Part shown: in pieces, positions 18,576 to 34,503 of the stretch | Numbering within the stretch: position 1 is the stretch's first letter | Layout of the letters: the number at the start of each line of letters is the position of its first letter | Assembly (NCBI GenBank): GCA_016869045.1 | Contig: VGFC01000008.1 | Coordinates: forward strand, 1-46,754 | DNA from: Armatimonadota bacterium | Lineage (GTDB): Bacteria > Armatimonadota > Zipacnadia > Zipacnadales > VGFC01 | Direction: 5' to 3' | Length of the DNA stretch: 46,754 bases | Notes under the pieces: model-generated | What the model saw: the letters and a program-made list of their open reading frames with translations, nothing else | Database searches by the model: none | Told to the model about the DNA's origin: nothing | Program-made: the position numbers and the translations under genes

Positions 18576-18620
18576 GGGACTGTCCTATCCCGCGCCAGCG
18601 GGATGAGGACTGTCCCTTGT
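18576..18620. repeat. REP-like element R1 (GGGACAGTCC family)
   Basis: An ATCCCGC/GCGGGAT hairpin flanked by GGGACTGTCC on the left and GGACTGTCCCTTGT on the right. It lies between the M24 peptidase gene and the RAYT remnant, in the same orientation as the element at 19383. Confidence 0.85.
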
Positions 18621-18678
18621 CCGCCGTCGCCGTTGCGCCCTCTCACACGATCCCGGGGCACCGAAGGGAGTGGTTGTC

Positions 18679-19299
18679 GTGGCACGGGCTGGGCGGCTGA
18701 TCCTACCGGGCCACCCCCATCACGTCACGCACCGCGGCAACCGTGGCCGCGACGTCTTCACCACCGACCGCGAGCGCCAGCGCTATCTTACTTGGCTCGC
18801 GCAAGGCGCCCGCCAACATGACGTCCGCGTCTGAGCCTACTGCCTCATGGACAACCACATCCACCTGATCGTGGTCCCTGATGAGCCGACCTCCCTCGCG
18901 CGCATGCTGCGTGATGTCCAGACGAAGCATGTGGTGGCGATGAACGCCGAGCACGGATGGGAGGGCCACCTCTGGCACGGCCGGTACTTCTCGTGCGCGC
19001 TGGGTGAGGACCACCTGCGGGAGGCGGTCCGGTACGTGGAGCGCAATCCGGTGCGAGCCCGCCTTGTCGCTGATGCGAGGGCCTACGCGTGGAGCAGCGC
19101 CCAGGCACACTGCGGGCTCCGTGCCGATGCCGTGCTCTCGCCGGATCTACCTCTGCTCCGCTGGGTCGACGACTGGGGCTCGTTCCTGGAGGACGAAGGC
19201 GACCCCGTCGCGGTCGAGAGGGTCAGGTTCGCGACGGCGAGAGGCATCCTGTGCTCGGCACACGCGACACAGGCCGTCGCTCAGCGGGGGAACGTCTAG
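18679..19299 (+). pseudogene. REP-associated tyrosine transposase (RAYT, IS200-like) interrupted by one TGA
   Basis: From GTG 18679 the frame reads MARAGRLILPGHPHHVTHRG and continues as a standard RAYT N-terminus to a TGA at 18832-18834. It then resumes in the same frame with AYCLMDNHIHLIVV and runs to TAG 19297. The codon before AYCLM is normally Trp (TGG), so a single base change would explain the stop. The HUH motif (NHIH) and the later REAVRYVERNPVRARLV block are intact. Read through, it is about 206 residues, a normal length. RAYTs are Y1 single-strand transposases thought to move or maintain REP elements, and REP-like elements flank this gene on both sides. A GTG at 18670 is an alternative start. 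It is either a recent pseudogene, a stop read through, or a sequencing error. Confidence 0.9.
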
Positions 19300-19346
19300 A
19301 CAAGGGACAGTCCTCGCGTCTCGCAAGCGAGACGCGGGACAGTCCC
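19300..19346. repeat. REP-like element R2 (inverse orientation)
   Basis: ACAAGGGACAGTCC, then a GCGTCTCGC/GCGAGACGC hairpin with an AA loop, then GGGACAGTCCC. It begins at the base after the RAYT stop codon and points opposite to the elements at 18576 and 19383. Confidence 0.85.
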
Positions 19347-19382
19347 AACCCGCAGCAGGGACCGTGCCGTCCCGCATTACTA

Positions 19383-19427
19383 GGGACTGTCCCATCCCGC
19401 GTTAGCGGGATGAGGACTGTCCCTTGT
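19383..19427. repeat. REP-like element R3
   Basis: GGGACTGTCCC, an ATCCCGC/GCGGGAT hairpin with a GTTA loop, then GGACTGTCCCTTGT. It is nearly identical to the element at 18576, so the two bracket the RAYT remnant as direct repeats. Confidence 0.85.
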
Positions 19428-23578: not shown

Positions 23579-23842
23579 TCAGCCGTAGATGGATTCGCGA
23601 GGGCCGATCTGCTCGACCACGATGACCTTGGGGTCGTGGAGCACCTCGAAGAGCACACGGTAGTCTCCGCAGCGGAGCCGGTAGGAGCCAGCCAACCGGC
23701 CCTTGAGTGCCTTCACGTCCTGACCATGCTCCGGCCACTCCCGAAGGCGCTCAATGCGACCGACGATGCGGGCCCGCACGGCGGTTGGCAGCGATGCGAG
23801 CTGCTTCGCAGCCGTCCGGGAGGTTCGCAGCTCATATCTCAT
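23579..23842 (-). CDS. RelE/ParE-superfamily toxin
   Basis: An 87-residue protein with the compact RelE fold pattern: MRYELRTSRTAAKQLASLP, a helical pair, then YRLRCGDYRVLFEV and VIVVEQIGPRE. Basic residues in the RLRCGDYRV strand are those expected to contact mRNA on the ribosome. Its start overlaps the end of the upstream antitoxin gene by 11 bp, the usual antitoxin-first order. Members cleave mRNA on stalled ribosomes or, for ParE types, inhibit gyrase; the sequence looks closer to RelE/StbE, but activity is not proven. Nothing appears truncated. Confidence 0.88.
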   Translation of the reverse strand: MRYELRTSRTAAKQLASLPTAVRARIVGRIERLREWPEHGQDVKALKGRLAGSYRLRCGDYRVLFEVLHDPKVIVVEQIGPRESIYG

Positions 23843-24092
23843 CAGGACGCCCCCGGAGTATGGCGTCCTTCACACTATCGAAGGGAACGGTGTCACAGAG
23901 GTCGCCCTCTCGATGGCGCGCAATCGCTTCGTAGTCGTCCTCCGACAGCTCCCACTCCTCCGCTTCCTCGCGCTCCACCACGAAGTCGATGTAGTCCACG
24001 ATCTCCTCCTGCCGGTCGAGGGGCAAACGGCAGACGCGTTCGTAGGCGCGCTCCCACAGGTTCCGGTCTATCGTTCGGTCGGTCTTGGCCAT
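23832..24092 (-). CDS. Antitoxin partner of the RelE-type toxin
   Basis: An 86-residue acidic protein. The frame is open to 24140, but ATG 24092 (MAKTDRTIDRNLWERAYERV) is preceded by GGAG at 4 nt and gives the more natural start. The middle (LPLDRQEEIVDYIDFVVE) resembles short helical antitoxins of the DUF2281 type, and the acidic C-terminal half (EREEAEEWELSEDDYEAIA) is a likely toxin-wrapping tail. It overlaps the toxin gene by 11 bp, so the two are co-translated. No separate DNA-binding domain is clear. The assignment rests mainly on its position and acidic composition. Confidence 0.8.
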   Translation of the reverse strand: MAKTDRTIDRNLWERAYERVCRLPLDRQEEIVDYIDFVVEREEAEEWELSEDDYEAIARHREGDLCDTVPFDSVKDAILRGRPDEI

Positions 24093-24194
24093 CTGACTCC
24101 ACCGTGGGCATGGCGGTGTCGGGTTGGAAGCCCGACCCACGAGCTGCGGTTAGCTTCGCCCCGTGAGGCGTAGGCTCCTGCCCGGCAGCGCCAT

Positions 24195-25046
24195 TCAGCG
24201 GGCCTCGGCGCGCTGCAGCAGGAGGGCGAGGTGGTGGAGGTGCTGCATGTGGTCGGGGCCGGTAGTGCCGGTGAAGCCGAAGAGGTGGAAGCCGGCGCGC
24301 TCGAAGCGCGAGATGCAGGTGAGGCCGGGGGCCCACTCGTCCGAGCAGGTCTCGCGTGTGGCGCCGAGTTGAGACAGGAGGTAGTCGGCGGTCTCGGTGG
24401 TGGAGGCGTAGGTGTCAGGGTGGATCTCGGAGTGGGAGATCACCATGATCTTCTTCCCGGCGGCGGCGTCGCGGGCGAAGCGCAGGAAGCCCTGCATGGC
24501 GACGGGATCGACCTGCCGCAGTGTGGGATCGCCCACGAAGCCCGCGTGGATCGAATCGGCCATCACGAGGGCGTCGATGCGCTCGTAGAGGTCGTCGTGC
24601 TTCAGCAGCTCGCGGACGCCGCCGAAACCGGCACTGAACGAGCTGACGGTCACGCGGGTGGGAATACGGGGACACGATCCCGATTCGATACGGCCGAATC
24701 GGGTCATGTCCCCGTATTCCGCGTGGGCGCGGGTCTCCGTCAGGATCGAGCGGAAGACCGCAGGATCGCGGAACTGCTCGGTGTGGACTGCCGAGAGGCC
24801 GTTGAGCACGACCGGCACCATCACCGCGTTCCAGCCGGACTCGACGAGGGCTTGCTCCGCTGCCCAGTGGGCGCCGTGGAGATGAACGACGAGGTGAATG
24901 CCCGCGGGGTCGGGGCGGTAGGTCTCCGGTACAAAGAGGCGGCCGACGGTGAGGTCGATGCGGCGGCCGGGAGGGTCGGAAGGCTGAGGGGCCGCGTAGG
25001 GAGCGGAGAGGAGAGGGAGGATGGTAGCGAGGGCGGGAGAGGGCAA
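24195..25046 (-). CDS. Secreted alpha/beta-hydrolase-like esterase carrying an in-frame palindromic insertion
   Basis: A 283-residue protein. The open frame reaches an ATG at 25097, but that lies inside a REP element; TTG 25046 follows AAGGAG with 6 nt spacing and starts a signal-like stretch (MPSPALATILPLLSAPYAA). The family-like parts are LVVHLHGAHWAAEQAL (oxyanion region), VSSFSAGFGGVREL (probable nucleophile Ser in SFSAG), ALVMADSIHAGF and a late His-rich DHMQHLHHL. Between TETRAHA and TRVTVSSF lie 20 residues encoded by a 60-bp palindrome at 24661-24720. Removing them restores a normal strand just before the nucleophile. The substrate is unknown. Whether the enzyme tolerates the insertion is unclear. 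Confidence 0.78.
   Translation of the reverse strand: MPSPALATILPLLSAPYAAPQPSDPPGRRIDLTVGRLFVPETYRPDPAGIHLVVHLHGAHWAAEQALVESGWNAVMVPVVLNGLSAVHTEQFRDPAVFRSILTETRAHAEYGDMTRFGRIESGSCPRIPTRVTVSSFSAGFGGVRELLKHDDLYERIDALVMADSIHAGFVGDPTLRQVDPVAMQGFLRFARDAAAGKKIMVISHSEIHPDTYASTTETADYLLSQLGATRETCSDEWAPGLTCISRFERAGFHLFGFTGTTGPDHMQHLHHLALLLQRAEAR
24661..24720. repeat. 60-bp palindromic REP-like insertion inside a coding sequence
   Basis: Outer arms GGAATACGGGGACA (24661) and TGTCCCCGTATTCC (ending 24720) pair perfectly over 14 bp. Inner arms CCCGATTCG and CGAATCGGG add 9 bp around a short loop. The length is exactly 60 bp, so the host frame is kept and 20 codons are added. The core differs from the GGGACAGTCC family in this window, so this is a separate repeat type, although both contain GGGGACA-like ends. 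Confidence 0.85.
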
Positions 25047-25084
25047 GGGGGGCTCCTTGGCGGAGGATGGACGGCACGGCAACA

Positions 25085-25140
25085 GTGGACAGTCCATGCG
25101 TCCTGATCCCGCGAGGCGGGGTCAGGACTTGGACAGTCCC
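25085..25140. repeat. REP-like element R4
   Basis: GTGGACAGTCC, a GTCCTGATCCCGC stem with a GAG loop and one mismatch, then GGACAGTCCC. It fills the gap between the esterase-like and deacetylase-like genes and shares its last base with the stop codon of the latter. Confidence 0.85.
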
Positions 25141-34445: not shown

Positions 34446-34503
34446 ACAAGGGACAGTCCTGCGTCCTGATCCCGCGAGGCGGGATCGGGACTCGGACAGT
34501 CCC
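34446..34503. repeat. REP-like element R5
   Basis: ACAAGGGACAGTCC, a GTCCTGATCCCGC stem with a GAG loop, then GGACAGTCCC. It is nearly the same as R4 (25085) and sits between the first and second pilT-like genes, 24 bp before the ATG. Confidence 0.85.

Follow-up and report, generated by a model that had tools for sequence, protein, structure and literature searches.

The 60-bp palindrome that lies in frame within an esterase-like gene of an Armatimonadota bacterium is, in the explanation that best accounts for the data and that we hold with good confidence, one copy of a young, species-specific mobile hairpin of REPIN/TIR-like type, whose copies in genes are in-frame survivors. The family, its hairpin, its restriction to one species, its in-frame copies with their frame-specific use, and the replacement of native residues are read directly from the genome sequences. 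The window, that is, the whole stretch of 46,754 nucleotides that was analysed, contains the following features of this copy and its host gene.

24661..24720, plus strand: 60-bp palindromic mobile element, one family copy, whole hairpin
24661..24674, plus strand: left outer arm GGAATACGGGGACA, containing GGGGACAC; these bases (24668-24675) match the GGGGWSAS motif known from TIRs next to Y1 transposases
24675, plus strand: C that opposes the A at 24706 in the invariant C.A mismatch, in 37/37 distinct 60-bp copies
24678, plus strand: invariant bulged T, in 37/37 distinct 60-bp copies
24679..24703, plus strand: inner stem CCCGATTCG/CGAATCGGG with 7-nt loop
24707..24720, plus strand: right outer arm TGTCCCCGTATTCC; from copy to copy, the two arms covary in the A/T at arm position 6
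24195..25046, minus strand: host gene, putative secreted alpha/beta-hydrolase (esterase-like), from homology, structural model, and a start inferred from sequence
24627..24641, minus strand: nucleophile motif SFSAG; 30 relatives all keep its F, second S, A, and G

The element reads GGAATACGGGGACACGATCCCGATTCGATACGGCCGAATCGGGTCATGTCCCCGTATTCC and folds, from the outside inward, into a 14-bp outer stem, the C.A mismatch, 2 bp, the bulged T, 9 bp, and the 7-nt loop. Coordinates, arms, and the in-frame position agree with the preliminary description, which had reported a two-part palindrome in frame at this position. DNA folding of the region yields z = -5.9, and 0 of 200 shuffles are equally stable. 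Across the 37 distinct 60-bp copies, 868 of 925 stem cells form Watson-Crick pairs, and 24 cells in 10 pairs are changed on both sides, compared with a shuffle mean of 3.3 and a maximum of 9. Each arm (GAATTcGGGgacacgaTCCCaATTC) is self-complementary by eye (GAATT..GGG..CCC..AATTC), like REP doublets. GGGGACAC in the F arm is near-invariant among copies; in the R arm, GGGGACAT departs from GGGGWSAS at the last base. The ends are sharp and common to the family. Outside the 60 bp, the flanks carry almost no information apart from a mild preference for G before and C after the element, and flanking direct repeats of 1-9 bp show no excess over shuffled pairs. The element contains no T-run.

The source genome (7.87 Mb in 723 contigs, a fragmented assembly that is 95% complete) holds about 110 copies of this element of two inverted REP-like halves. 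Both the earlier suspicion of a REP-like element and the proposed search for the same palindrome elsewhere in the genome were thereby borne out. The end motif with up to three mismatches matches 222 times and the reversed motif 0 times, and BLAST returns more than 40 full-length matches at 87-100%. A chance palindrome is ruled out by the copy number, the end-motif counts, and the folding score. Complete copies measure 60 bp (45 rows), 61 bp (16), or 62 bp (10); some solo and tandem halves also occur. The strict motif matches 73 times in the source genome and 0 times in the 290 other phylum genomes (291 in all), including the same-genus genome G001, which argues for a burst that is species-level and probably recent. 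The loose three-mismatch count in 150 relatives was uninformative at a background that reached about 20 matches per genome, and the strict motif decided.

The reading frame around the copies was assessed by a codon model trained on the fetched loci, with homology for part of the set; these statistics cover the 67 complete copies with enough flank, out of about 110. In 22 of the 67, both flanks are coding in one continuous frame, whereas 460 of 600 random 60-bp stretches from the same loci (77%) pass this test; thus, genes are avoided overall by the element. When the frame was slipped in silico by taking out 1 or 2 bases behind the element, only 2 of 67 passed. The in-frame intragenic copies comprise 12 of 60 bp, 9 of 61 bp, and 1 of 62 bp, so that ten of the 22 have lengths that are no multiple of three. 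Consequently, selection on the net change, and not the element length, preserves the frame, and the earlier proposal that it is retained because the palindrome measures exactly 60 bp fails. The same description had treated an in-frame copy as an exception to an intergenic norm. Most copies do lie between genes, many of them directly 3′ of gene ends, but at least 22 are intragenic and in frame.

Each of these in-frame copies adds about 20 amino acids, and their orientation is even (11 versus 11). Most copies are stop-free in five of the six frames, one of the five being open in about half. The sixth frame always carries a TGA (open in 0/37 copies) and is never used internally among the intragenic copies, which use only stop-free frames. 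This TGA, at bases 15-17 in reverse orientation, serves as the stop codon of seven neighbouring genes (loci L094, L099 with two copies, L103, L112, L113, and L121). Within host proteins, the insert occupies residues 117-137 inside the Anth_synt_I_N domain (61-215, Pfam) of a PabB-like protein and residues 514-534 inside a Pfam domain (200-699) of a PFL-like protein; further hosts are MoeA-like, glycosidase, nitrilase-like, and ABC transporter proteins. Copies of 61 bp are seemingly over-represented in genes (9/16, versus 12/45 for 60 bp and 1/10 for 62 bp; L064-L123), which could be chance or a different deletion spectrum. In four genes, a whole and a half element stand side by side, both in frame (L105 on C298, L081 on C77, L083 on C88, and L111 on C351), which suggests that insertion recurred at one site or that the site was duplicated.

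In the esterase-like gene, the frame runs through the palindrome on the minus strand (300-aa ORF, 24195-25097). The likely start is the TTG at 25046-25044, which follows AAGGAG and precedes a signal-peptide-like stretch; the ATG at 25097, which lies inside a copy of a second repeat family, is a less likely start. The 20 element-encoded residues EYGDMTRFGRIESGSCPRIP are followed by TRVTVSSFSAG, placing them just before the nucleophile motif as had been noted. SFSAG is common to relatives in Armatimonadota, Planctomycetota, Verrucomicrobiota, Acidobacteriota, and Gemmatimonadota. A Pfam search of the esterase returned no family. Its AlphaFold model (mean pLDDT 89.6) matches PDB esterases and cutinases (best E 2.3e-06) and places the insert (127-146) in a predicted low-pLDDT loop between helix 112-127 and strand 148-154, which leads to the nucleophile. 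Within the fold core of this model, poor prediction is confined to this loop.

None of the 43 aligned orthologues carries the same 20 residues, and G001 has no esterase orthologue. The outcome that would have spoken against an insertion, namely distant orthologues sharing the residues, did not occur. From FRSIL to SFSAG, the loop is 43 residues long here; the closest orthologues have 34, and almost all orthologues have 27-35, a comparison that rests on distant orthologues. Therefore, about 11 native residues were replaced for a net gain of about 9. The stated gain of 20 codons is correct for the element but not for the gene, and the anticipated protein variant takes the form of a loop lengthened by a net 9 residues over the closest orthologues. 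The insert would thus have replaced about 11 residues of a variable loop, beside but outside the catalytic core, and esterase activity is presumably retained.

Empty sites in G001, which diverges from the source genome by about 12-25% in DNA, extend this picture to other genes. At every informative pair (C7_24889, C54, C77 with two sites, C88, C106, C201, C298, and C365), the orthologous G001 frame lacks the element and shows, where the element would sit, a native stretch of about 3-12 residues. This stretch is missing from the source genome exactly at the element edges, and the net length differences are multiples of three, also for 61- and 62-bp copies. Orthologues with a native stretch at the element's place indicate that the copies replaced some host sequence; its deletion at insertion, rather than later, is what we infer. 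Differences at codon positions 1/2/3 relative to G001 amount to 343/256/925 downstream and 503/419/1189 upstream of the inserts. The matching patterns place the frame beyond the insert under purifying selection, part of which predates the insertion.

As a possible route, the element would be copied as a single-stranded hairpin, probably by a Y1 (HUH) transposase supplied in trans, and would land with a short loss of target sequence and without target duplication. Surviving copies would lie mostly between genes; genic copies would survive only where the net length changes by a multiple of three and a stop-free frame is read, the resulting peptide of about 20 residues being tolerated as a surface loop. 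The invariant mismatch and bulge, the missing target duplication, and the inverted REP halves point to such Y1/HUH single-strand handling in trans. The source genome contains 10 Y1_Tnp matches, and its Y1 genes include some with NHVH and YVEHNP/YVELNP motifs; the same-genus genome has 6 Y1 loci. No member of the palindrome family was found in the searched flanks of the 10 Y1_Tnp loci of this fragmented, 95% complete assembly. Since no Y1 gene is adjoined by the exact element, the link to a transposase is drawn by analogy, and a Y1 enzyme as the mobilising activity is a guess. The analogy is provided by one Y1 gene (NHVH, YVEHNP; contig C183 of the source genome, G000), which has similarly laid-out palindromes on either side (L195, 1214-1282 and 1964-2038); this related family (GGAAATTAGGGACAGGCCCC...) has about 74 genomic copies. 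We tentatively propose, at somewhat less than even confidence, that the hairpin swaps itself for about 6-35 bp of host DNA, so that selection could keep in-frame outcomes at any element length, with loops seeded in dozens of one species' enzymes.

The window contains further repeats and genes. Hairpins tagged by GGACAGTCC, with 10 exact copies versus 0.7 expected, constitute the second repeat family; they border a Y1 transposase gene whose frame contains a TGA near 18833, and one copy each is found a short distance upstream of the esterase gene and at 34451. A 102-aa ORF that overlaps a ParE-like toxin ORF looks like its antitoxin partner.

18577-19422, 25087-25139, and 34451-34502: GGACAGTCC hairpins, the first range including the Y1 gene between them
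~18680-19300: Y1 transposase gene
23579-24140, minus strand: ParE-like toxin ORF (Pfam ParE_toxin, E 1e-8)

The explanation that competes most closely concerns the landing step. A clean insertion, with the missing native residues due to later trimming or to independent divergence of the loop and with no replacement mechanism, is a plausible if doubtful reading. The sites lie in variable loops, DNA divergence from the compared relative is about 12-25%, and the esterase comparison depends on distant orthologues; loss of the replaced residues could postdate insertion, or the loop could have diverged in the relative. Against this stand the exact coincidence of the missing stretch with the element edges in every informative same-genus pair and a net change that is a multiple of three even with 61- and 62-bp copies. 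The missing bases also bear on a classical MITE, which would derive by deletion from a DDE insertion sequence, move by cut-and-paste, and leave target-site duplications. Such an origin would suit a short, non-coding, dispersed element with terminal inverted repeats; however, host bases are missing and not duplicated, no target-site duplication of 1-9 bp exceeds the shuffled expectation, and pairing with covariation extends along the whole length rather than only the ends. This reading is largely refuted already, and we regard it as very improbable.

A different view would see the repeat as kept for a role in DNA or RNA (gyrase, IHF, or nucleoid binding, mRNA stabilisation, or termination), with the intragenic copies as side effects. 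Such roles are known for other REPs (PMC6006769), and many copies directly follow gene ends; yet the strict motif is absent from the same-genus genome, both orientations are equal in genes, and a T-run is lacking. As the main explanation, this is unlikely, whereas a secondary role may be compatible with all of these points. It is hardly credible that these 20 residues form a normal segment of the enzyme, with an incidental palindrome: the frame is open with good codon scores on both sides, but the same 60 bp recur in unrelated genes and between genes, the 43 aligned orthologues lack the residues, and the encoded loop is the sole poorly predicted piece of the modelled fold core.

The favoured reading of a mobile REPIN/TIR-like hairpin shares features with several known systems. 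Protein-coding palindromes were first described as a peculiarity of Rickettsia and later as occasional intragenic REPs. Rickettsia palindromic elements (RPEs) are likewise mobile hairpins that sit in frame in many unrelated genes and between genes and add a short peptide at tolerant sites. The present family also enters unrelated genes in frame (22/67, against 2 in the slip control and 77% of random sites). Unlike RPEs, which are longer, it belongs to Armatimonadota, measures 60-62 bp, and lacks host residues at the insertion point, a comparison drawn by behaviour; moreover, its source genome has a hairpin family of the same build flanking a Y1 transposase.

TIR repeats of TIRYT (Y1) genes share GGGGWSAS (PMC3733652; TnpAREP subclass 2.1 in PMC6006769). 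The palindrome resembles them as an inverted-repeat family with GGGGACAC in its F arm, in a genome where a family built the same way flanks one of the Y1 genes. It differs in that it flanks no Y1 gene found in the searched DNA of the 10 Y1_Tnp loci and in that its second arm GGGGACAT misses the last base of the motif. With REPINs/BIMEs, the REP doublets moved by cognate RAYTs, which cut a conserved tetranucleotide, it has in common two inverted REP-like halves in one covarying hairpin, solo halves and tandems, and about 110 dispersed copies that lie near gene ends in both orientations. In contrast to these, no GTAG/GGAG-type tag was seen here, and a third of the testable copies lie inside genes. 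The target-site duplication that would mark a MITE of a DDE insertion sequence was not found.

Intragenic REPs of the GTAG and CGTC type are documented, including Rickettsia elements, in O. terrae, R. conorii, and others, and likewise encode 20-30 residues within ORFs (PMC3733652). They belong to another repeat class, and here frame use, a frame-slip control, and empty orthologues were tested. Coxiella MITEs occur in functional genes at 3′ ends (PMC5896051). A literature search on the bare motif GGGGACA gave unrelated matches only. A young burst in a large-genome bacterium, together with same-genus empty sites, offers a test of how hairpins enter proteins, of target-base deletion, and of the tolerance of enzymes to random 20-residue peptides. 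The palindrome family behaves like known intragenic REPs; new are a class not listed as intragenic in PMC3733652, another phylum, the high intragenic share, and the apparent replacement of the target.
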